Of a stretch of DNA of 64,000 nucleotides, positions 2,426 through 61,820 are shown in pieces. This DNA is from Methanoculleus horonobensis (GTDB lineage Archaea; Halobacteriota; Methanomicrobia; Methanomicrobiales; Methanoculleaceae): NCBI RefSeq assembly GCF_001602375.1, contig NZ_BCNY01000014.1, forward strand, positions 186,001-250,000, given 5' to 3'. Below the pieces are notes generated by a model that did no database searches, was not told where the DNA came from, and saw only the letters and a program-made list of their open reading frames with translations. Positions within the stretch are counted from its first letter, which is position 1. Every line of letters begins with the position of its first letter. Both the position numbers and the translations under genes were made by a program.

Positions 2426-2711
2426 TTTGATCAGCGCTCTCCCGTGGGTTCTGCATCATGCATATCCATTATCCGATATATAGATTGCGCCCCTCTCACA
2501 AGAATGTTTTTCAATGGATTTGGAGAGTTCCTCAAAAATATCAGGGATAGGGTGGAGGATAGCCGTCACCCCGGGCACCCCGGACGGAACTGCTTCATGG
2601 GGGTGCCGATCATGCAGGCGAGGGGTTGGGGCGGCGAGGGGACCTGGATGGCCCACCCGCGTCTGTGGTAGCCTGGGGTTCTACTTCGGCTCTAACGACC
2701 CGTCGCGACTC
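2426..2711. other. Intergenic gap without a supportable gene
   Basis: This stretch separates glmM (which ends at 2726 on the minus strand) from the large helical-repeat gene. Apart from the TATA-like box at 2475-2483 I see no gene. A 75-codon plus-strand frame at 2444-2671 has unlike codon use and no ribosome binding site, so I do not call it. Confidence 0.6.
2475..2483 (-). promoter_or_regulatory. TATA box for the large helical-repeat gene
   Basis: The minus strand reads CTATATATC in an AT-rich patch, centred about 54 nt before the ATG at 2425. Archaeal transcription normally starts 25-27 nt after the box, which would leave a leader of roughly 27 nt. It is the only clear TATA-like run in this gap. 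Confidence 0.5.
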
Positions 2712-2747
2712 GCACCTAACGGTGCTCATGCTCCGGACGTCCCGTCC
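2712..2747 (-). repeat. Two hairpin modules of the mosaic repeat family, overlapping the end of glmM
   Basis: On the minus strand a palindrome GGACG-GGA-CGTCC (2735-2747) is followed by the spacer GGAGCATGAG and a second palindrome GCACC-GTTA-GGTGC (2712-2725). The same words occur in the large arrays: the first palindrome and spacer recur at about 15370-15395. The first hairpin lies inside the last codons of glmM, and the stop TGA is read from the spacer. Confidence 0.8.
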
Positions 2748-4096
2748 GTCGCAACCATCATGATCTCCCGGTACATGGCGTCCGCGACGGCCGGGTCCTT
2801 TGCCTCGATCATGATCCTGATCATCGGTTCCGTGCCCGATGCACGCACCAGCGCCCAGGCGTTCTCCCTGACGATCTTGATGCCGTCGATCTTCTCGATG
2901 GTCTCTCCTCCGAACGCCTCTTCGACGGCGCGGACCAGCGCGGCCGGGTCGGCGGTATGGTATTTCTCTTTGACCAGGTGGTATGCGGGGAGTTCATCGA
3001 CGATCTCCGAGAGTTTCCTGCCCTTGTGGCTCGCGAGCACCGCCACCATCATGGCGGCGGTCATGCCCCCGTCCCGGCAGAACTGGTGGTCGGGGTATAT
3101 CAGCCCGCCGTTTCCTTCGCCCCCGAACGAGACCTTCTTGCCCTCGCCGATCAGCTCGATCATCCTCCTCGCGACGTAGATGCTCCCGACGGGGGTGTAG
3201 TCGACGGTGCAACCGTGTTTCTCTGCGATATCTCGTATCAGCCGGGAGGTGGCGACCGGGGTGACGACGAGTCCGCCGCCGTTTCTACCGCAGACATAGT
3301 CCTCGACCAGGCCGAACTCGTAGTTCTCTTCTATATAGCGTCCTTTGGTGTCGACGAAGACTGCCCGGTCGGCGTCGCCGTCGTGCGCCACCCCGAAGTC
3401 GGCGCCCGTGGCGAGCACCATCTCCGAGAGGGGCTGTAATCCTTCGGGTGTCGGTTCGGGCATCCGCCCAGGGAAGGTGCCGTCGAGCCTGCCGTTGATG
3501 GTATGGACCCGGCACCCCATCCTGGAGAGGATGATCGGGGTCGTGAGCGCCGCGGGCCCGGAACCGGGGTCGACGACGACGGTCATCCCTTTGCCGATGC
3601 CCTCCGGGAAGTACTTCACCACGGCCTCGATGTAATCCTCGAACCGGTCGGGTGCGGCGCTCTCGCTGCCGACGCCGTCCCAGTCGACCACATCGAACTC
3701 CTCTGCAAAGAACCGGCCTTCGAGCCGGATGATCTCCTCGTCGGACATCTCGGTGCCGTCGGCCTCGATGATCTTCACGCCGTTGTACTCGGGCGGGTTG
3801 TGGGATGCGGTGATCATCGCGCCGCCGGCAAACCGGTTGGTCTTGATGATATACTGCAGGGCCGGGGTGGGGAGGACGCCCATGTCCACCACGTCGCACC
3901 CGGTCATCAGGAGCCCGGCCTTGAGGGCATGGGTCAGGGCTTCGCCGGACGTCCGCGTGTCTCTGCCGACCGCGATGGTGCCTCTCCTCATCGATCCGAG
4001 CGCGGCGCCGATCTTGAGGACGAGGGCCGGCGTCATCGTCTCGCCGATCACGCCCCGCACGCCGTTCGTTCCAAACATCTGTTTTCCGTTTCGCAT
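2726..4096 (-). CDS. glmM: Phosphoglucosamine mutase (alpha-D-phosphohexomutase family)
   Basis: GlmM interconverts glucosamine-6-phosphate and glucosamine-1-phosphate on the way to UDP-GlcNAc, used for glycoconjugates and surface polymers. The 456-residue product has all family landmarks in order: the phosphoserine loop TASHNPPEYNG (about residue 97), the metal-binding loop HDGDADRAV (about 240), the sugar-binding GGEGNGG (about 325) and the C-terminal phosphate-binding RASGTEPMIRIM (about 425). An ATG at 4096 follows the preceding stop by 4 nt; a second in-frame ATG at 4078 (MFGTNGVRG) would give the more usual N-terminus. It is the last gene of an operon with DUF5806 and mobB-moaE. The last codons (ATDGTSGA-stop) come from a mosaic-repeat module. 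Some archaeal homologues act as phosphomannomutase, so substrate is less certain than family. Confidence 0.9.
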   Translation of the reverse strand: MRNGKQMFGTNGVRGVIGETMTPALVLKIGAALGSMRRGTIAVGRDTRTSGEALTHALKAGLLMTGCDVVDMGVLPTPALQYIIKTNRFAGGAMITASHNPPEYNGVKIIEADGTEMSDEEIIRLEGRFFAEEFDVVDWDGVGSESAAPDRFEDYIEAVVKYFPEGIGKGMTVVVDPGSGPAALTTPIILSRMGCRVHTINGRLDGTFPGRMPEPTPEGLQPLSEMVLATGADFGVAHDGDADRAVFVDTKGRYIEENYEFGLVEDYVCGRNGGGLVVTPVATSRLIRDIAEKHGCTVDYTPVGSIYVARRMIELIGEGKKVSFGGEGNGGLIYPDHQFCRDGGMTAAMMVAVLASHKGRKLSEIVDELPAYHLVKEKYHTADPAALVRAVEEAFGGETIEKIDGIKIVRENAWALVRASGTEPMIRIMIEAKDPAVADAMYREIMMVATDGTSGA

Positions 4097-13285: not shown

Positions 13286-14473
13286 ATGGAAAGCGCTGCC
13301 CTAGCAATTGAGATCCAGATGAGCCTCCTCCTCTTCCTCGCGCTCGCCGGCTACCTCGTGGCATCCCGTATCAACCAGTCGGCGACGATCGGGGCGATTC
13401 TTGTGGGGGTTCTGGTCGGACCGAGCGTGCTCGGCCTGATCACCTACACGGACTTCGTCGCGACCCTGGCGCATCTCGGAGCAATCATCCTCCTCTTCGT
13501 CATAGGCTTCGAATTTAACATCAGGGATATCCTCGATCCGCGCTACGGCGTCATCGGCCTTGTCGGCGTGGTCGTCCCGTGGATAGGCGGTTACGCCACT
13601 GCCGTCTTCTTCGGGTTCGACTTCGCGAGCGCGGTCTTCATCGGCACGGCGCTGACAGCGACGAGTATCGCCATAACCGCAAACGTTCTCAAGGAGATCG
13701 GCGTGCTCCAGACCCCGGCAGCGAAGGCAATCATCGGTGCCGCGGTCATCGACGACGTCCTCTCCCTCCTGGTGCTTGCCGTCTCCACCGATCTGGTGGT
13801 GAGCGGGGATATCTCGGCGGTATCGGTCGGCGTGATGCTCGGCAAGGCCGTTGGATTCATCGTCGTCGCCGGCGCCGTCGGGTACTTCGGCATCCGAAAG
13901 GTCATCGAGCGAATGGACGCAACTCCTCTGGCGCGGAAATATCCGGAATTCGTCTTCATCTTCGCCATGATGGTGGCGTTCCTGTATGCGATGCTCGCCG
14001 ACCTGGTGGGCTTATCGGGCATCATCGGTGCGTTCCTTGCCGGGGTTGCCTTTGCCGGCGTCGAGCTCCGGCAGAGTAAGGGCGTCCACGAGGGCGCCGA
14101 ATACTTCCAGATCGTCTTCGCCTCGATCTTCTTCGTATCGCTCGGAATCCTCGCGGACATCCGTGCGCTCACATCCGACATGGTCCTCTTCCTCCTGGTG
14201 CTGACCCTGATCGCCATCGTCACCAAGGTCCTCGGGTGTGCTCTCCCTGCCCGGGCGATGGGGATGTGCCGTGAGGACTCCCTTATCATCGGGTTCGGGA
14301 TGGCCCCGCGGGGCGAGGTGGCGATGATCGTCGCGCTGATCGGGCTCGAGTCGGGGCTGATCGGCCAGAGCGTCTTCGTGGTGGTTGTCTTGATGAGCCT
14401 GCTGACCACGCTCATCACCCCGATCGTCTACCGGAACTGGTTCTACAAAGGCGCATACTGCCCTGTCGACTGA
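13286..14473 (+). CDS. Na+/H+ antiporter-like cation:proton antiporter, CPA2 family
   Basis: The 395-residue integral membrane protein has about 12 hydrophobic segments and no large soluble tail, so no RCK/TrkA regulatory domain follows. The transport core includes the unwound-helix motif ALTATSIAITANVL and the AAVIDDVLSL pair of aspartates on the next helix, the signature of electrogenic CPA2 antiporters of the NapA type. The ATG at 13286 is preceded by GGGTG; a GTG at 13280 would add two residues. A methanogen that couples energy to a sodium gradient would use it for Na+ or pH balance. Ion specificity (Na+ or K+) is inference. Confidence 0.87.
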   Translation: MESAALAIEIQMSLLLFLALAGYLVASRINQSATIGAILVGVLVGPSVLGLITYTDFVATLAHLGAIILLFVIGFEFNIRDILDPRYGVIGLVGVVVPWIGGYATAVFFGFDFASAVFIGTALTATSIAITANVLKEIGVLQTPAAKAIIGAAVIDDVLSLLVLAVSTDLVVSGDISAVSVGVMLGKAVGFIVVAGAVGYFGIRKVIERMDATPLARKYPEFVFIFAMMVAFLYAMLADLVGLSGIIGAFLAGVAFAGVELRQSKGVHEGAEYFQIVFASIFFVSLGILADIRALTSDMVLFLLVLTLIAIVTKVLGCALPARAMGMCREDSLIIGFGMAPRGEVAMIVALIGLESGLIGQSVFVVVVLMSLLTTLITPIVYRNWFYKGAYCPVD

Positions 14474-14493
14474 TGCAGGGGAAGAGCCTGAAC

Positions 14494-14536
14494 CCTTTTT
14501 TTCATCAATCTCTCCCCTCATCGTGCGATAAAAAAA
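14494..14536. terminator. Back-to-back T-rich terminators between convergent genes
   Basis: A T-run at 14496-14502 follows the antiporter stop on the plus strand. An A-run at 14529-14536 is a T-run for the minus-strand ferritin-like gene, which ends at 14561. Oligo-T tracts are sufficient for termination by archaeal RNA polymerase. Confidence 0.6.
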
Positions 14537-14560
14537 GTGGCGGAGCCGCGAAACCCCACC

Positions 14561-15016
14561 TTACCAGGCTTCCGGAAACGCCATGTTGGTGTAGATGTCC
14601 TCGAGGCGCGCCTTGTGGCCCCGCTCCATTGAGGCGAGGCTCTCGAAGAGTTCGATCTGATCCGGGTCAACGCTGAGGCCCGCGAGCTGGGTGTACATCT
14701 GCATTGCGTCGAGTTCTTTTCTGATTGCGATGACGAGGCCGTCGAGCGGCTTTAAGTCGGCCGAGAGCGGTGGCGTCTCCAGGGCATCGGCAACTTTGTA
14801 GTCCCGCTTTGTGTTGAACGCGAGTTTCCCCGGTTCCTTCGTGAGAAGGGCTTCGAGGGTCTTTCGGTGTTTGCTCTCCTCCCCGGCGAGCTCGTTGAAG
14901 AGGTTTTTCAGGTTCTCGTCCGTGACCTTCTCCTTGACTGTGCGGTAGAAGGTGTATGCCTCGATCTCGCGGTCGATGGCATTCGATATGATGGAACGGT
15001 ATTCTTCGGTGTCCAT
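14561..15016 (-). CDS. Ferritin-like/rubrerythrin-family di-iron protein
   Basis: The 151-residue all-helical protein has the ferritin-like di-iron layout: EIEAYTFYR in the first helix, GEESKHRKTLEAL as the ExxH of the second, then RKELDAMQMYTQLA and ASMERGHKARLEDIY in the third and fourth. It lacks the rubredoxin CxxC domain of full rubrerythrin, so it is the short form. Such proteins remove peroxide or store iron in strict anaerobes. The ATG at 15016 gives MDTEEYRS; a GTG at 15028 would add four residues. A mosaic repeat element begins about 190 bp upstream of its start. Confidence 0.85.
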   Translation of the reverse strand: MDTEEYRSIISNAIDREIEAYTFYRTVKEKVTDENLKNLFNELAGEESKHRKTLEALLTKEPGKLAFNTKRDYKVADALETPPLSADLKPLDGLVIAIRKELDAMQMYTQLAGLSVDPDQIELFESLASMERGHKARLEDIYTNMAFPEAW

Positions 15017-15205
15017 GACTTTATGCACCGGTGGGACAGTAGTATTTGAGGCTTTTAAACCTTGTCAGGGGCGGGGTTTGGTAGGGTGGTGGCAAGGCGT
15101 GGTGGGGGATGGTTTGGGGATGGGAGGATGAGTGGTCAAACTGACGATGTCAAACATTGGGTTCCCGCCCTACTGTTGTCAGAAATGTCACAAACCGTAA
15201 ACGGC

Positions 15206-15610
15206 TTTCCACCGGCTTCGCACCTTCGGTGCTCTAGCTCCGGTTCTCCGAACCATCGCCTATCGCCATGGACTGCCCCCGCCCCCTGGGGCGGGGTGCG
15301 ACGGGCCATGGGGCCGGAGCATGAGCACCGCAGGTGCGGAGGAGGAGGCCGGAGACCGGGCGGGGTGTGACGGACGGGACGTCCGGAGCTTGAGAAGACC
15401 GAAGGTCTTCGAGTGGGGGTTACAGGAATTCCCTCGTATGTGGAGACAGGGGAGGGGGGATGCTCCCCCCTCCCCGTCAGCCCCACCCCCGATGGCGATA
15501 TGCGACTGGCCGAAGGTGCGACATTCCTCTGGAACGGAGTTCGAGCACCGGAGGTGCGGGGGCAGGAGCACGAGCACCGAAGGTGCGTAGTCCCCACGGT
15601 CCACTGCAAT
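15206..15610. repeat. Mosaic hairpin-repeat array, including a 61-bp ends-only element
   Basis: The region is a chain of short palindromes with 3-4 nt loops. Examples are GCACC-GCA-GGTGC, GAAGACC-GAA-GGTCTTC, GGACG-GGA-CGTCC, GAAC-GGA-GTTC and GCACC-GAA-GGTGC, joined by GAGCATGAG, GAGCTTGAG or GAGCACGAG. At 15440-15500 the two element ends lie almost next to each other: GTGGAGACAGGGGAGGGGGG on the left and ATGGCGATA (reverse of TATCGCCAT) on the right. This looks like a minimal element without interior modules. Another TATCGCCAT is at 15261-15269. The array lies between the 5' side of the ferritin-like gene and the 3' end of thrS. Open frames across it (15136-15609 and others) are by-products of the repeats. 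Confidence 0.85.
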
Positions 15611-15631
15611 GAACCCCTCCTTATACCGTTG

Positions 15632-15788
15632 CATTAGCAATCACAGCCACCTGCCTCCTGACCTTGCTCCACTGAACCAAACCACGATCAGTGGAGGTTT
15701 GAGCAGCCTCTGCCTGGTTAACCCTCATTGAAAAAGCATGCAGTTGGAAAGAATCCTGAACTGCAGGACACTGTGCAGAAGAAAATCT
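15632..15788 (-). other. AT-richer patch with a possible gene remnant
   Basis: Between the repeat array and the thrS terminator the base composition drops. One minus-strand frame is protein-like: it reads SMRVNQAEAAQTSTDRGLV and ends at a TAA near 15632. Only about 35 codons follow its ATG, and there is no ribosome binding site. It could be the stub of a transferred gene or transposase. I do not recognise the family. Confidence 0.3.
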
Positions 15789-15795
15789 AAAAAAA
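15789..15795 (-). terminator. T-run terminator after thrS
   Basis: Directly after the thrS stop the minus strand has a run of seven T inside an AT-rich stretch (about 15781-15806), as expected for archaeal intrinsic termination. Confidence 0.6.
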
Positions 15796-15799
15796 GAGA

Positions 15800-17635
15800 T
15801 TAAATAAACCGGGGCTTCCGCGAGAGAAGCTTCGGCGTGTAGAGCGGCCGGAAGGGCTTTCCGGCGGTTTCGAGTTTGACCGCCTGGACGAGTTCGCTCT
15901 CGGTCATCGTCTCCTTGTAGGGCTTCTTCTTCTCCGAGAGTTTCCGGATGGTGATCATGAGCCGGCCGGTCTCGGCTTCCTGGTCGCCGATCACTGCGAC
16001 GTAGGGCACCCAGTCCATCCCGGCCTCGCGGATCTTCTTGTTCACGCTCTCGTCCCGGTCGTCGACATCCGCCCGGATACCGGCCGCGTTCAGCCGGGTG
16101 CCGATCTCTTCCGCGAAACAGACATGCCGCTCCGCCACCGGCACCAGCCTGACCTGGGTCGGGGCGAGCCAGGTTGGGAACGAGGGAACCTCCTGTGCCG
16201 CGGTGCCCTCGAGCATCGCGCAGATCACCCGCTCGATCGAGCCCGTCGGCGAGCAGTGGAGGATCGGGGGATGAACCTCCGTTCCGTCCGGTGCGTAGTA
16301 CTTGATATCGAACCGGTCGGCGCTCTCCACGTCGATCTGGACGGTCGGGTTCTCGATGGGTCTCCCCTGTGCATCGATCGCCGCGAGGTCGACCTTTGCT
16401 ATCCAGTAGTGAGTCCGCTCCGAGAGAACCTCAATCAGCATCGGCACGCCAGACTTCGCGACGATCCCCTTCACCCAGAGTTCATACTGGTCGAAGAAGT
16501 CGCGGGTGCACCGGAAGACCCCGACGAGCGGGGTCTCGAGATCCTCGCCGGTCTTCCAGCCTATCGCGAGCTGCTCCTCGAACGCCGTGAGCGCGCCGTC
16601 TGCGTCGCGGCAGAGGGTGTGCATGTCGGGCATCGTGAATGCGCGCAGACGCTTCAGGCCGATAACCTCGCCCTTCTGCTCGTGGCGGAACGAGTAGGTC
16701 GAGAGTTCGTAGAGTTTCAGCGGGAGGGTGTTCGGCGAGATATGCATGTCGTGCATGATCGAGAACATCCCGAAACACGCCGCGAACCGGAGCATCATGT
16801 CGCGGTTGCCGCTCTTGAACCGGTACTGCCGCTCCCCGAACTTGGCCGCGTGCTCCGCGATCGCCTTATCGCCGAGGTCGTACATCACCGGGGTCTCGAC
16901 CGGCATCCCGCCGTAGTCGAGCACCTGTGTGAGGACGTAGTCGGAGAGAAGGTCGCGGATCAGCTTGCCCCGGGGCATCCAGCGGTGGTTTCCAACATCC
17001 GCGCGTGGTTCGTACTCCACGAGCTCCTTCGCACGCATCAGGTCGACGTGAACCGGCTCGGCCCCTTCCGGCCCCGGGTACCCTAGTTCCTTCCGGATCA
17101 GGGCGGCGAAGGGCGTCTCCTCCTTCGCGTAGTCGGCTGCGTCTTTGCGGTCACCTTCAGGGGTGATGACGAAGAACTCGTGCTCGATCTCCTTCTTCGG
17201 CGCGGCCGCCCCTTCTCCCGGGACGATCGTCCGCGAGAGTTCGGAGAGCGGGTGGCCCTTGCAGGAGAGCGAGAATGCCTTATACCAGCCGAACGGCGCA
17301 CGTTTCACGACGAAACCGTCCGTACCGTTGAGAATATCCTGGATACCCTTAAGAGCGCTCACCGCTGCATCCGGCGATGCAAGGTCGGAGGAGAGGTGGG
17401 CATAGGGGTAGATCATGATATTGGTGGTGCCGAGCTGCCGGGCAGTGGTAACGATCTCGTCGGCCGCCTGCCTGACGGCATCCTCGATGTTCTCCTCGTC
17501 GACAGACTCAACCGCGCAGAAGACGGCAAGCGCCTCATCAAGGGCGTCCTTTGGGACGGCATCCTCTTCGGCGACCTTCGTCTTCTTCCGGGCCTCGTAT
17601 TCGATATGATCAGAGTGGATCAGAAGAAGTCGCAT
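15800..17635 (-). CDS. thrS: Threonyl-tRNA synthetase, archaeal type
   Basis: ThrRS charges tRNA-Thr. The 611-residue protein begins [20 protein letters not shown], the archaeal N-terminal editing domain related to D-aminoacyl-tRNA deacylase, in place of the bacterial editing domain. The class II core follows with [21 protein letters not shown] (motif 2 region), zinc-site residues around the [11 protein letters not shown] segment and motif 3 near [18 protein letters not shown]. The anticodon-binding domain occupies the C-terminal 110 residues ([19 protein letters not shown]). It stands alone with its own TATA box. Confidence 0.95.
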
Positions 17636-27256: not shown

Positions 27257-27311
27257 GCGGCGTGAAGACGGCGATGGCGATAAGCGACGTTTCGGCAGAA
27301 ACGGATCTCGA

Positions 27312-27325
27312 GCACCGTCAGGTGC
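27312..27325 (+). repeat. Single mosaic-repeat hairpin module
   Basis: CGAGCACC-GTCA-GGTGCGC contains the palindrome GCACC/GGTGC with a GTCA loop and the flanking GAGC and GCG words. The same module recurs at about 61740-61755. It is 65 bp beyond the stop of the beta-propeller gene and may act in 3'-end formation or be an element relic. Confidence 0.6.
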
Positions 27326-27389
27326 GCTACTCGTTAACGCGTCGCGCTCCACCGGTAATCGTCTTCGTGCGGCACGTTCCCGCTCCCCC

Positions 27390-28535
27390 TCATTCCTGGT
27401 TTCGCAGTCTGAGCAGACATACCGTGAGAAGCAGTGCACCCGCTGCAGAAACTACCTCAAATCCCGGCGATGCGGGTGCCGCTGGATCTTCGAGCTGGAT
27501 CGCATACAGGTCGTTTCCATCGCTCACGAGGATCGTCCTGCCATCGGGAGACCACTGCTGCATCATGAATGCCGGGTTATCGGGGCCGAGGGGTGCGAGG
27601 TCCGATCCGTCGCTCTTCATCACCCAGAGCGTCTGGTCCCGCGATTCCGACCGGAAGGCGATCCTGGTACCGTCCGGCGACCAGACCGGTGATGTGTCCC
27701 AGTTTCCGGTTGTCAATTGCTCCGAACCCGATCCGTCGCTATCGATAACCCAGAGAGAGAACTCCGGCAATGTCCCCGGCGGTGACGCGACGACGTAGGC
27801 GATCCTGGCACCGTCCGGGGACCAGGAATACCCGGATACGCTCCCCTCGCTGAACGTCACCTGTGTCTTGCCCGTTCCGTCGCTCTGCATGGTCCAGATC
27901 TCCCGGTTCCCGGTTCTGTCTGCGAGGTATGCGATCCTGTCCCCCTGCGGCTGCCACAGGGGCAAACGCGCATCTCCATCGGTCGTCAGCTGCTTCTTGT
28001 TGCCGCCGTCCGCGTCCATGATCCAGATGTCCGCTTCCGTGCGGATGGCCGAGAGGTTCACTTCCTGGATGGCTGCATCATCGAAGAGGCAGGAGGTATA
28101 GACGATCCGCCTCCCATCGGCGCTCCAGTCCGCCCCGTAGCCGGATAGCCCCGGAATGGGGACGATGCGGCCGCCTTCGGTCAGGCGCACCTTCCCGGTC
28201 CCGTCCGGGTTCATCGTCCAGAGGTCGAGCCCTCCTCCGTCGTCGGAGAGGAAGAGGAGTTTCTTCCCGTCCGGCGACCAGAGATCGAACTCGGTGAAGA
28301 GATTCCACGAACGGTTGTCCGTCACCGGTACCGGGTTTCGGCCGTCGCGCTCCATCACCCGGATGCCGACATGGACTCCGTCGGATGAGACGAAGGCGAT
28401 CCTATCCCCGTCCGGCGACCAGAAAGGATACGAATTGAATGCCGAATCGTTTGTTAGCTGGACGACGGGTGCAGCCGCTGCCGGGAGAGTGCATGTGATC
28501 AGCAGCAGGACGATACATATCGCTTTTCGGTTCAT
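27390..28535 (-). CDS. Secreted TolB-like (PD40) beta-propeller protein with PGF-CTERM anchor
   Basis: The 381-residue protein begins with a signal peptide (MNRKAICIVLLLITCTLPAAAA). Then come about seven WD40-like PD40 repeats recognisable by recurring WSPDG(D/K)RIAF blocks, such as YPFWSPDGDRIAFVS, DLWSPDGKKLLFLS, YSWSPDGARIAYV and PVWSPDGTRIAFRS. The C-terminus SPGFEVVSAAGALLLTVCLL followed by RLRNQE is a PGF-CTERM signal, processed by archaeosortase A and linked to a lipid in surface proteins. GGAGAGG lies 5 nt before the ATG at 28535, which decides the start over ATGs at 28559 and upstream. TolB-like propellers bind protein partners; the ligand is unknown. Confidence 0.85.
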   Translation of the reverse strand: MNRKAICIVLLLITCTLPAAAAPVVQLTNDSAFNSYPFWSPDGDRIAFVSSDGVHVGIRVMERDGRNPVPVTDNRSWNLFTEFDLWSPDGKKLLFLSDDGGGLDLWTMNPDGTGKVRLTEGGRIVPIPGLSGYGADWSADGRRIVYTSCLFDDAAIQEVNLSAIRTEADIWIMDADGGNKKQLTTDGDARLPLWQPQGDRIAYLADRTGNREIWTMQSDGTGKTQVTFSEGSVSGYSWSPDGARIAYVVASPPGTLPEFSLWVIDSDGSGSEQLTTGNWDTSPVWSPDGTRIAFRSESRDQTLWVMKSDGSDLAPLGPDNPAFMMQQWSPDGRTILVSDGNDLYAIQLEDPAAPASPGFEVVSAAGALLLTVCLLRLRNQE

Positions 28536-32149: not shown

Positions 32150-33148
32150 TCATATCCACTCTTTCTTCCTGAAGTAAAGGAGCATCGCGAACGCGACGCC
32201 TACCATGAGGAGGAGGACGAGAGGATACCCGAGCGGCGAGTCTTCGAGCGGTATGTCCCTGAGATTCATCCCGTAAAACCCGGTGATGAAGCTTAAAGGA
32301 ATGAAGATGCTCGCGACGATGGTGAGGATCGTTGTGATCTCGGCGAGCCTGTTGTTCTGGTTCGAGGTGTGGAGATCCATCACGCCGGAGAGGGTATCCC
32401 TGGTATACTCCGCGACCTCTGCCGCCTGGATGCACCGGTCGTATATATCCCGGAAGTACGGGATCGTCTCCTTCCGGACAAGGCTCAACTCCCGGCTTGC
32501 GAGCGCCCCGAGAACCTCGCGTGCCGGCACGGCAGCTCTCCGGATGGTCAGGAGATCTTCTTTGAGTTCGTAGATCTGCTTTAAGGCAAGCGGATCCGCG
32601 ACGGCCAGAACCCTGCCCTGGAGATCTTCCACCCGGTCGTCGACCGCGTCGAGGATGGCGAGGTAGACGGTCACGATGGCGTCGAGGAGCGTGTACGCGA
32701 GGAAGTCCGGCCCCGTGCCCCGGATGACGCTCAGCTCGTTCCTGAGCCGTTCCCGGACCTGTTCGAAGACCTGGAAAGGCTGCTCCCGGAACGTTATGAC
32801 GTAGTTCTCCCCGAAGATCAGGCTGACCTGCTCGCTTGCAACCCTGCCGTCTCTCTCCGAGAGCATCCTCGCGATGACGGCGACGTAGCTCCCGAACTCC
32901 TCCACCTTCGGCCGCTGGTCGGGGGCCGTGATATCCCCCATCGTGAGCGGGTGGATTCCCGCCTGTTTGCCGAGGGTCACGAGTTCGTCGCGCTCCGGCA
33001 CCCCGACGACGTCGATCCAGGTGACCGTCTCCCGGCCGATCCACGACCAGGCCTCGGTGAGTTCGATGCACTCGTGCTCCTCGATGCGGTCCTGCGTGTA
33101 GTCAATCACTCTGATCGAGAGTCTCCCACAGGTTTTTGCCGGCTGCAT
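32150..33148 (-). CDS. corA: CorA-family divalent metal (Mg2+/Co2+) channel
   Basis: The 332-residue protein has the CorA plan: a soluble alpha/beta N-terminal funnel (about 1-240), one long helix, and two C-terminal membrane helices. The signature YGMNL is in FITGFYGMNLRDIPLE and the short basic tail is LLYFRKKEWI. CorA forms a pentameric Mg2+ channel gated by bound Mg2+. GGAGGTG stands 5 nt before the ATG at 33148, which fixes the start. A second CorA-type gene is at 34378-35424, with an MscS gene between them; the two share the ending YFRKKxWI. Confidence 0.92.
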   Translation of the reverse strand: MQPAKTCGRLSIRVIDYTQDRIEEHECIELTEAWSWIGRETVTWIDVVGVPERDELVTLGKQAGIHPLTMGDITAPDQRPKVEEFGSYVAVIARMLSERDGRVASEQVSLIFGENYVITFREQPFQVFEQVRERLRNELSVIRGTGPDFLAYTLLDAIVTVYLAILDAVDDRVEDLQGRVLAVADPLALKQIYELKEDLLTIRRAAVPAREVLGALASRELSLVRKETIPYFRDIYDRCIQAAEVAEYTRDTLSGVMDLHTSNQNNRLAEITTILTIVASIFIPLSFITGFYGMNLRDIPLEDSPLGYPLVLLLMVGVAFAMLLYFRKKEWI

Positions 33149-34377: not shown

Positions 34378-35424
34378 TCAGATCCACCCTTTCTTCCTGA
34401 AGTAGACGAGCATCGCGACCGCGACGGCCGCCATCGAGGCGAGGGCCAGAGGGTAGCCCCAGGGATGGCTGATCTCCGGCATGTAGGCAAAGTTCATGCC
34501 GTAGACCCCGGCGATGAAGGTGAGCGGGATGAAGATGGTGGCGATGACGGTGAGGACCTTCATGATCTCGTTCATCCGGCTGCTCTGGCTCGAGAGGTAG
34601 ACGTCGAGCGTCCCGGACATCGTATCCCGGTAAGTCTCCACCGTCTCGGCGACCTCTATGACGTGGTCGTAGACGTCCCGGAGGTAGAAGAGTGTCGGTT
34701 CCCCGATCAGGGGCGACTCGCCCCGCTCGAGTTGTGCGACCGCTTCGCGGAGCGGCCAGACCGACCGCCGGAGCGCTATAAGGGATCGCTTCAAGGAGTA
34801 GATCGCCTGCAGGGTCTCGCGGTCGGGTTCTGCCACCACCTCCTCCTCGACCACTTCGATACGCTCCCCGAAGACCTCGATCACAGAGAAGTAGCCGTCG
34901 ACGATAGCGTCCAGCAGGGCGTAGAAGAGGTAATCGGCCCTCTCGCTCCGGAGCCGTCCGGCTCCCGCACGCAGCCGCTCCCGGATACGCTCGAAGACGT
35001 CGCCCGGATGTTCCTGGAAGGATACTACGTAACCCCTCCCGAGAACCAGGCTGACCTGCTCGCTATGGAACTCGCCGTCGCCGGGAGCAAGCATCCGGAC
35101 CGCAACGTAGAGGTAATCGCCGTAATCCTCGATCTTCGGCCGCTGGTGGGTGTTCGCGATATCCTCCAGGGTCAGGGGGTGAATCCCGACGGCATCCCCG
35201 ACGGTCTGGATCACCCCGGTATCGTGGACGCCGTCGACGTCGATCCAGGTGACCCCCTCATGGAGGACGGAGAGCCGGAACTCCCCCGGCAGCGTGTACG
35301 CTCGCTCTTCGAGGCGGGACTCATCGTAGTCGATGACCGTGACGGTGACCGGTCGTGAGCGGGAAACGTCCGTTTCGGTAATGCGTCCGCTCGATCCCCG
35401 GCTCTGGTCGTCGTGCGGGCTCAT
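34378..35424 (-). CDS. corA: Second CorA-family divalent metal channel
   Basis: This 348-residue paralogue has the same plan as the product of 32150-33148: N-terminal funnel with WIDVDGVHD and EQVSLVLGRGYVVSFQEHPGD, a long helix, the YGMNF variant of the pore signature (AGVYGMNFAYMPE) and the tail VYFRKKGWI. The common pore loop is YGMN-L, so Phe after it is a small departure. No ribosome binding site precedes the ATG at 35424. It probably transports Mg2+, Co2+ or Ni2+. Confidence 0.9.
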   Translation of the reverse strand: MSPHDDQSRGSSGRITETDVSRSRPVTVTVIDYDESRLEERAYTLPGEFRLSVLHEGVTWIDVDGVHDTGVIQTVGDAVGIHPLTLEDIANTHQRPKIEDYGDYLYVAVRMLAPGDGEFHSEQVSLVLGRGYVVSFQEHPGDVFERIRERLRAGAGRLRSERADYLFYALLDAIVDGYFSVIEVFGERIEVVEEEVVAEPDRETLQAIYSLKRSLIALRRSVWPLREAVAQLERGESPLIGEPTLFYLRDVYDHVIEVAETVETYRDTMSGTLDVYLSSQSSRMNEIMKVLTVIATIFIPLTFIAGVYGMNFAYMPEISHPWGYPLALASMAAVAVAMLVYFRKKGWI

Positions 35425-49165: not shown

Positions 49166-49284
49166 GGTATCGCCATGGGGGGTGGGGACAATGGGGAGTG
49201 CGACCGAAGGGAGCATGAGAAGAACGAAGTTCTTCGAGGGGGGTCTCCCCCCTCCCCTGAAACCCCTCCCCCAGACGCGATAGC
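49166..49284. repeat. Short mosaic hairpin-repeat element
   Basis: The element begins with GGTATCGCCAT (49166-49176) and the G-rich words shared with other copies. It contains AGTGCGA-CC-GAA-GG-GAGCATGAG and the perfect palindrome GAAGAAC-GAA-GTTCTTC (49219-49235), followed by GAGGGGGG-TCT-CCCCCCTC (49236-49254) and CTCCCCTG. The right end departs from the other elements after that and finishes with GCGATAGCC, which partly mirrors the left end. It lies between two convergent genes. The 419-bp gap around it (49021-49439) holds no gene. Confidence 0.8.
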
Positions 49285-55282: not shown

Positions 55283-55870
55283 GGCCTTCGGCCTCCTCCT
55301 CCGCACCTTCGGTGCTCAAACTCCTGCTGTTCCAGCAGTCGTTCCCCGCCCCTTGGGGCGGGGGCAGTCATGGCGATACCCCCACGGTACACTGCCTGGG
55401 GATAGGCTCTAGATAGGGGGATGTATGGCTCCCCTCCCGGATACGGCTTTCGTGGGGGTATCGCCATTGGGGGAGTGCGACTGGCCGAAGGGCAGGAGCA
55501 TGAGAAGAACGAAGTTCTTTGAGGGGCTGACGGGGAGTGCGACTGGCCGGAGGGTGCGACTGCCGGAACGGCAGGAGCATGAGAAAACGCGAAGCGTTTT
55601 CGGGGCAGGAGCATGAGCACCCGAAGGGTGCGGAGTGCGAGCGTAGCGAGCTTGAGCACCGGAGGTGCGAGTGCGATGGTTCGTAGAACCGGAGCTCGAC
55701 CACCGTCAGGTGGGAAGTGCGAGCGTAGCGAGCTTGAGCACCGGAGGTGCGAAGGGGAGCATCCCCCCTCCCCTGTCTCCACCTGCCGCGGATAACTGTA
55801 GCCCCCACCCCACCCGCGCTTCACGCTCCTCCCCCTTCCTGCGGGGCGGGGGCAGTGTGTGGGGATAGCC
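55283..55870. repeat. Large mosaic hairpin-repeat array with both element ends
   Basis: The array holds a long chain of palindromes. Examples are GGCC-GAA-GGCC, CTGCTG-GAA-CAGCAG (minus), AAGAAC-GAA-GTTCTT, CTGCCG-GAA-CGGCAG, AAAACGC-GAA-GCGTTTT, CACCC-GAA-GGGTG, GC-GTA-GC, CACC-GGA-GGTG, GGTTC-GTA-GAACC and CCACC-GTCA-GGTGG. Spacers alternate between GTGCGA-type and GAGC(A/T)TGAG-type words. A full-length element runs from TATCGCCAT (55459-55467) to CCCCCCTCCCCTGTCTCCAC (55763-55782). A second, shorter part sits left of it in the opposite orientation, with ATGGCGATA at 55370-55378. Open frames here are artefacts. Confidence 0.88.
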
Positions 55871-61344: not shown

Positions 61345-61820
61345 ACGAACTCATTAGTACGTGGAGACAGGGGAGGGGGGCAAGCCCCCTCGAAGAACTT
61401 CGTTCTTCTCGTGTTCGCTTCGCTCGCACCTCGAAACTCTTCGAGTTTCTCATGCTCACTACGTTCGCACCTCGCACCTATCGGTGCTCAAGCTCGCTTC
61501 GCTCGCACCTCGAAACTCTTCGAGTTTCTCATGCTCACTACGTTCGCACCTCGCACCTATCGGTGCTCAAGCTCGCTTCGCTCGCACTTCCCACCTGACG
61601 GTAGTCGAGCTCCGTTCCTTCGCACCTTCGGTGCTCACGCTCCGGTTCTCGCACCTTCGGTGCTCAAACTCCTGCCGGGACGGCAGTCGCACTCACGAAC
61701 CGTCGCGCTTCGAACCGTCGCACCCCCCGTCAGCCCTTCGCACCTGACGGTGCTCCAGCTCCGTTCCGTTGGAACGTCGCACCCTCCGGCCAGTCGCACT
61801 CCCCTATGGCGATATCCCGT
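61345..61820. repeat. Mosaic hairpin-repeat element, full length with both ends
   Basis: On the minus strand the element runs from TATCGCCAT (61806-61814) to CTGTCTCCAC, whose complement GTGGAGACAGGGGAGGGGGG is at 61361-61380. Between the ends are about fifteen palindromes with GNA or GNNA loops, such as CTGCCG-TCC-CGGCAG-type stems, GCACC-GAA-GGTGC, GC-GAA-GC, AC-GTA-GT, AAACTC-GAA-GAGTTT and CACC-GATA-GGTG. The spacers are GTGCGA and GAGC(A/T)TGAG words. A 79-bp unit is duplicated in tandem. The 662-bp gap (61330-61991) between convergent genes has no gene. Confidence 0.9.
61415..61587. repeat. 79-bp tandem repeat inside the element
   Basis: The unit starting TCGCTTCGCTCGCACC begins at 61415 and again at 61494 and, in part, at 61573, so the period is 79 bp. 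Copies 1 and 2 look identical. Read on the minus strand, one unit is two spacer-hairpin pairs: GTGCGA with GC-GAA-GC and AC-GTA-GT mini-hairpins, and GAGC(A/T)TGAG with CACC-GATA-GGTG and AAACTC-GAA-GAGTTT. Confidence 0.9.

Follow-up and report, generated by a model that had tools for sequence, protein, structure and literature searches.

An uninterrupted rPQS core in a mosaic extragenic repeat of Methanoculleus, and a separate family of double-hairpin units

The 61 bp studied here lie in an intergenic spacer, flanked by thrS and a ferritin-like gene, within a 64,000-nucleotide stretch of DNA (hereafter, the window). They are an uninterrupted copy of the dispersed core of the recurrent potential quadruplex sequence (rPQS) of Methanoculleus, a core already published (PMC8044849). 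The hairpin modules found near it are a second family, separate from the core. It seems reasonably probable that the core belongs to a mosaic extragenic repeat, and that a separate family of 45–51 nt double-hairpin units is turned over by exchange between copies, with no dedicated enzyme.

The published archaeal quadruplex repeat appears here as one component of a fast-changing mosaic, which a second hairpin family enters at two points. Since relatives carry these loci in bare, filled, or core-free states, they allow direct questions on how small hairpin repeats spread without a recognised transposase, and on whether quadruplex or triplex DNA drives this spread. The findings also suggest that the variability of rPQS sites should be weighed before such sites are read as regulatory signals.

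The 61-bp core and its setting

The two end words described in the initial annotation indeed face each other (GTGGAGACA at 15440–15448 and ATGGCGATA at 15492–15500) and enclose no hairpin module. Between them lie the G-run/C-run stem, GGGGAGGGGGGA-TGC-TCCCCCCTCCCC, with perfect 12-bp arms, and the GGGGTGGGG text, which is present on the minus strand (CCCCACCCCC at 15481–15490). Modules in the outward flanks were recovered with model R1 (Table 1), the match at 15567–15590 being weak (E 0.005). Read on the minus strand, the core runs TATCGCCAT-C-GGGGGTGGGG-CTGAC-GGGGAGGGGGG-AGCAT-CCCCCCTCCCC-TGTCTCCAC. The structure is well beyond chance expectation. Extended versions of both end words occur genome-wide in 20 exact copies and in 55 with up to two mismatches (reversed-pattern controls, 0 and 2); folded as DNA, the 61 nt have z = -3.5, with 1 of 200 shuffles as good. 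The word TATCGCCAT is also found inverted at 15261–15269; therefore, a larger frame probably spans 15261–15500, and the 61 bp are probably its G/C-rich half, not two outer ends joined.

Table 1. Features of the window discussed in the text (positions in the window)
Feature	Position	Strand	Remarks
Unit outside any core	2708–2753	-	other arrays at that place in relatives
Ferritin-like gene	14561–15028	-	
Double-hairpin unit outside the frame	15216–15260	-	R1 57.6 bits
Probable full extent of the frame, bounded by inverted TATCGCCAT/ATGGCGATA words	15261–15500		probable boundaries; MH98A match stops at 15501
Double-hairpin unit after GGGGCGGGG	15297–15341	+	R1 59.6 bits
Double-hairpin unit, second stem longer	15366–15414	+	R1 33.2 bits
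Bare rPQS core, 61 bp: TATCGCCAT word, G-run 1-T-G-run 2, CTGAC, G-run 3-A-G-run 4, loop, C-tract, TGTCTCCAC word	15440–15500	-	layout of PMC8044849 and sequence
G-runs 3–4, loop, and C-tract; perfect 12-bp inverted repeat	15449–15475	-	
GGGGGTGGGG, G-runs 1–2; possible third strand of a triplex	15481–15490	-	
Unit array between segments matching different relatives	15502–15590	+	R1 units 15517–15561, weak 15567–15590
thrS	15800–17635	-	
Solo unit	27283–27329	+	in window, G011, and G012
Short frame, one unit at third gap	49168–49282	+	unit stems differ in G006 and G007
Long frame, unit arrays at first and third gaps	55459–55867	+	bare in G007, not found in G006
Core words enclosing a long unit array	61361–61814	-	

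The rPQS of Methanomicrobiaceae has been defined by Chashchina et al. (2021) as four G-runs with a single base between runs 1 and 2, a centre of 3–5 nt, and one A separating run 3 from run 4; CTGAC is the central loop in Methanoculleus, a C-rich tract lies at the 3′ side, and the repeats are intergenic, with their strand unrelated to genes (PMC8044849). The focal core has the same four G-runs, a single base in the first gap, the CTGAC centre, a single A in the third gap, and a tract complementary to runs 3–4, CCCCCCTCCCC, where C3TC3 or longer is expected. The definition further demands at least four intergenic copies per genome; a strict bare-core pattern has 29 matches in the genome of the window (G000, 2.45 Mb; control 0), the intergenic position having been checked for the focal copy. 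The likeness thus extends from the G-runs, gaps, loop, and C-tract to multiple copies, intergenic location, and the lack of strand relation to genes. Oligonucleotides with GCA and ACC loops form a quadruplex, hairpin, or antiparallel triplex as judged by CD and S1 nuclease, and those described in the available text did not include the CTGAC variant (PMC8044849).

An "ends-only" copy was initially regarded as a special form. However, bare is the commonest form of the core here: among the cores with the TGTCTCC word at the G000 loci examined, 30 of 43 are uninterrupted and 13 are interrupted. In the five short interrupted cores readable end to end, the unit is inserted at GGGGAG/GGGG. The strict pattern is present in 30 of the 35 genomes of the genus. 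Across the order it matches 32 of 232 genomes, and the only ones from other genera are G035 (7, control 2) and G054 (1); matches of its control are confined to G016 (1), G023 (5), and G035 (2). For the loose core pattern, the reversed control is unclean because cores with A in the first gap match too, and in G035 control and pattern are equal (21 vs 20).

The core is also laid out like a class I purine-motif intrastrand triplex in the sense of PMC4666352, i.e., a 5′ third strand followed by the purine and pyrimidine strands, with G-G-C and T/A-A-T triplets. Wherever a third strand was recognised (54 distinct contexts), T (32) or A (22) faces the purine-strand A; C is never found there, and exactly four Gs follow. 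The regular expression picked up no third strand in the other 56 of the 110 contexts, many of which read the palindrome on its opposite strand. The same paper mentions that polymerases are arrested at purine-motif triplexes, and reports higher variability around such motifs in E. coli (PMC4666352).

Cores bear no strand relation to neighbouring genes (23/44 and 24/44), and their neighbours are convergent in 9 cases, divergent in 10, and tandem in 25, all by crude calls from long ORFs; the shares given for annotated genes in PMC8044849 (about half tail-to-tail, 11% head-to-head) were not reproduced. With neighbours called in this crude way, a strand-specific RNA role was rejected for want of a strand bias. 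Other candidates were discarded too. Comparison of the window with Rfam at the gathering threshold returned two tRNAs only and no RNA family of known type for the repeat, the region 14400–16600 had no match in a plasmid collection, and ORFs do cross the array on both strands, but spacer content varies among relatives, which speaks against a coding role.

The thrS protein of G000 is at most 97% identical to that of named Methanoculleus contigs. Elsewhere in the window, 32150–33026 and 34378–35254 form a neighbouring paralogous pair, about 65% identical via cross-matches to relatives, and degenerate repeats about 130–150 bp apart occur at 27600–28423, apparently in coding sequence; presumably, they resemble the repeats of beta-propeller proteins.

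Double-hairpin units and their points of entry

The unit comprises two adjacent hairpins repeated as one, about 45–51 nt in all. In order, it has between one and three outer pairs and a GA; a 6-bp stem, commonly with a GNA/GNNA loop, and another GA; a short linker; and then GA before a second stem of at least 5 bp with such a loop, often with a final GA. In the literature searched, supplements aside, no description of this family, its entry points, or its turnover was found. A covariance model built from 22 units has at least 169 matches in G000 at E ≤ 0.01 and at least 161 at E ≤ 0.001, both lower bounds obtained with 150 candidate stretches scored. At E ≤ 0.001, 33 of the 35 genomes of the genus contain at least one match (range 0 to 169), and of five genomes from the rest of the family, two have matches, G038 (60) and G039 (one); with stricter filters and E ≤ 1e-4, matches occur in 41 of 232 genomes of the order. 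Covariation within the model is partly circular, since most stem pairs were chosen for complementarity. The unselected pair next to the outermost one is GC in 13 units, AU in seven, GU in two, and unpaired in none, while outermost pairs form in 14 of 22 only.

Loops of distinct hairpins bracketed by GA on both sides are of restricted types. Three-base loops are GNA in 40 of 101 cases versus 402 of 4690 in other hairpins, four-base loops are GNNA in 22 of 63 versus 250 of 4740, and a C-G pair closes 53 of these 62 GNA/GNNA loops. The distinct GNNA loops include 14 GNYA and 8 GNRA; by occurrence, GNYA makes up 40 of the 42 listed. According to PMC4686876, DNA mini-hairpins of extraordinary stability arise when GNA or GNNA loops are combined with G-C pairs, and the loop types lean towards DNA rather than RNA as the acting form, a leaning that proves nothing. 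DNA folding of the three focal units does not favour the GNA strand (z of -3.3, -2.2, and -0.4 versus -3.6, -1.4, and -1.5 for the complements), and one of the three folds no better than shuffles. Loop energies calculated with RNA and DNA parameters tie for three-base loops and are hence uninformative.

The core and unit families are distributed partly independently. Units with few or no cores are found in G002 (159 units, no strict and two loose cores) and G038 (60 units, no core); cores with few or no units are found in G010 (33 strict cores, five units), G035 (seven strict cores, control 2, no unit), and G036 (28 loose cores, control 7, no strict core, no unit). The independence is not full, because unit and core counts correlate over 40 genomes (Spearman 0.65).

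Across all loci examined, 14 distinct contexts have a unit in the first single-base gap of the core and 25 have one in the third; by the patterns tried, none enters the central loop or the C strand, and one lies after run 4. Genic matches overwhelmed a loose regular expression for acceptor sites (111 of 221 "other"), and stricter patterns were used instead. Outside core gaps, units follow GGGGCGGGG, GCGATA, or another unit. Junction repeats, judged by eye, are AG or GAG.

Recent tandem arrays with equal scores were seen in G000 at C15:383514–383881 (eight units, 46 bp apart), C11:126–493 (eight, 46 bp), C4:45445–45720 (six, 46 bp), and C7:9834–10013 (four, 45 bp). The contig ends C7:36, C8:1, C11:34, C13:12, C14:33 and 520172, and C15:9 of this genome lie within the repeats; therefore, its assembly probably breaks at the repeats, and copy numbers there are probably underestimates.

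Turnover at the focal and other orthologous loci

Among relatives, the thrS to ferritin-like spacer measures 172 to 931 bp and exists in bare, filled, and core-free forms, and other loci behave alike, which bears out the earlier suggestion that modules are gained and lost. Bare cores of the focal type occur in MH98A and Afa-1, units within the core in FWC-SCC3 and DJKA97, and short core-free spacers (172–292 bp) in UBA303, UBA430, UBA77, and G002; the automatic labels of these states are rough, and G027 was labelled "none", yet its spacer has a core-like hairpin. In the comparison of this locus proposed by the initial annotation, an identical structure in all relatives would have pointed to a fixed, old arrangement; when the comparison was run, the structure was not identical in all. 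In a small thrS–ferritin tree, drawn without support values, the states are scattered, and the nearest neighbour of the window, FWC-SCC3, is filled.

Window positions 15029–15501 match MH98A (L087) at 94% over 485 bp, positions 15591–15794 match DJKA97 at 94% over 204 bp, and the intervening 89 bp are a unit array. The focal allele is a mosaic with its break at the end of the core (15501); therefore, recombination is supported, whereas the idea that the core was inserted into an older array gains no support. Such an insertion of the 61 bp had been suggested; however, MH98A shares both the bare core and all of the ferritin-side array, and the array without the core was seen in no relative. Of the earlier interpretation as a whole, the gain and loss of modules stands; the special ends-only copy and the insertion into an older array are not supported. 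On the ferritin-side flank, positions 15141–15268 have an inverted match in G003 and G009 (L090, L093), as if the element had been flipped.

The frame might also be a MITE, with its TATCGCCAT/ATGGCGATA ends as terminal inverted repeats, a transposase acting in trans, and the units riding along. Its inverted end words (TATCGCCAT at 15261, ATGGCGATA at 15492) are of the kind expected for terminal inverted repeats, the repeat is multicopy and intergenic, the break in the focal allele falls exactly on the TATCGC word, and the locus is core-free in several relatives. However, comparison of the loci yielded no frame-level empty site that was clean and had a target duplication, and the core often keeps its position across several species with a changing interior, which makes a MITE distinctly unlikely. 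An action of the core or units in transcription (termination, initiation, or RNA stability), a possibility raised in PMC8044849, would be in line with intergenic positions near gene ends and with structural lability in vitro (PMC8044849). It is nevertheless very unlikely, given that no strand relation to neighbours exists either here or in PMC8044849, and that the contents of the focal locus are exchanged or absent among close relatives, while, by eye, the T-run after the thrS stop and the TATA-like stretch before the ferritin-like gene persist across them.

Elsewhere, 15 of the 20 repeat islands could be compared with at least one relative. Lengths differ by more than 30 nt in 33 of 38 island comparisons versus 16 of 46 repeat-free intergenic spacers (Fisher 1.7e-6), a contrast inflated by the choice of islands in the genome of the window and of plain spacers of 80–600 bp as controls. 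Even the five comparisons of near-equal length include two with exchanged stems (49 kb) and one with different content (61 kb, G007), the other two being a shared solo unit. At 55.46–55.79 kb, G007 has a bare core versus arrays at both gaps in the window and G011, and the element was not found in G006 (195 nt between anchors versus 1028). No recent donor of this array was found among the G000 loci examined, which do not span the whole genome; at ≥90%, other matches reach 125 bp at most. G000 has 179 nt more than the bare G006 at 302,275 of the extended contig, made up of one unit (about 40 bp) and an array (about 135 bp). At 49.2 kb, the frame is common to the window, G006, and G007, and both hairpin stems are exchanged. 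The solo unit at 27283 is absent from G003 and G006, and the G007 spacer is shorter.

Two further observations concern relatives. About 250 bp of units and frame at 306842–307188 of the extended G000 contig are nearly identical in G006, the surrounding DNA differs by several percent, and a fully exchanged block adjoins; a recent transfer or conversion is possible. At the place corresponding to about 40010 of the window, G003 has an element with inverted ends (CTCAGTACTT...AAGTACTGAG) holding double-hairpin units, which is absent from the window.

Possible routes of unit spread and comparison with known systems

Units are gained, lost, or exchanged at fixed junctions of the mosaic repeat, most likely by recombination, gene conversion, or template switching between dispersed copies. 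Replication stalling at the core and hairpins may provoke the exchange. Such turnover would need no dedicated enzyme and would presumably bring the host no benefit. A more daring version, which we consider rather improbable, makes the quadruplex- or triplex-forming cores landing pads: replication would stall in the G-runs, the nascent strand would switch to another array at AG/GGG and copy in a GA-bracketed, GNA-looped double hairpin, and the hairpins would be a selfish kind of DNA for which shape matters more than sequence and which spreads, with no transposase, through template switching that structure provokes.

Plain replication slippage within tandem arrays might by itself suffice; consistent with it are two G006 arrays (5.5 x 51 bp and 6.8 x 49 bp, 99–100% matches) and the regular 45–46 bp series in G000. 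Losses could indeed be due to slippage, but alone it cannot fill a bare core, swap stems at an unchanged position, or join segments resembling two relatives; as a sufficient cause it is highly improbable.

The units could, instead, be true mobile elements like the mitochondrial double-hairpin elements, an enzyme recognising GA-bracketed, GNA-looped hairpins and joining them at AG/GGG in G-rich strands. Copy numbers of up to 169 matches per genome, and from 0 to 169 within one genus, accord with mobility, as do the precise presence or absence of units at loci (55 kb; the extended contig), the AG/GAG junction repeats of 2–3 bp seen by eye, and the units inside the unrelated inverted-repeat element of G003. 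The solo unit at 27283, with its unfilled relatives, lies in otherwise unique DNA and is explained more simply by transposition than by exchange, though its junction is blurred by substitutions. Against mobility, the junctions coincide with short homologies common to all copies. Moreover, searches for two mobility domains, Y1_Tnp and RVT_1, found neither in G000. Y1_Tnp occurs in 7 of the 35 genomes of the genus, over the cut-off in six, five of which have 0–5 units and the sixth, G017, 112, while the below-cut-off G032 has 152; RVT_1 occurs in 3 of 35 (G022, G025, and G026). A Y1 transposase and a reverse transcriptase were rejected as movers of the units because their distribution across genomes does not fit. 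Overall, true mobility of the units appears unlikely, and exchange between copies remains our preferred reading. Another Methanoculleus genome, G033, has 19 Y1 transposase matches, many of them broken, and contains no unit and no core.

Several known systems share features with this mosaic. The available text of PMC8044849 describes the rPQS core without double-hairpin units, unit-split copies, a TATCGC-bounded frame, or orthologous turnover. The TMECO/BoxC triplex motifs of E. coli (Holder et al., 2015; PMC4666352) likewise combine a G/C hairpin with a G-rich third strand having T or A opposite the purine-strand A, are intergenic, and have been linked to raised local variability; however, the E. 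coli motif belongs to class II and starts from the C tract, and entry of hairpin units does not figure in the available text of that paper. REP/BIME palindromes are also short, high-copy, intergenic, and grouped into mosaics (PMC3733652). They are tagged GTAG/CGTC and their GTAG class is tied to RAYT (IS200/IS605-type) transposases (PMC3733652), whereas G000 has no Y1 domain. The units here begin with NRCGA. The mitochondrial double-hairpin elements of Allomyces and the repetitive hairpin elements of sponges are compact double hairpins too; their copy number varies between close relatives, and mobility has been suggested for them without flanking duplications, but they are mitochondrial, and an RNA intermediate was suggested there (PMC2800124), while RVT_1 is absent from G000. 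Finally, M. marisnigri has satellite families of 45 and 51 nt (PMC6749651), lengths that, in a comparison by length only, equal those of the unit arrays here (45–46 nt in G000 and 51 nt in G006); these satellites may be tandem arrays of the same double-hairpin units.
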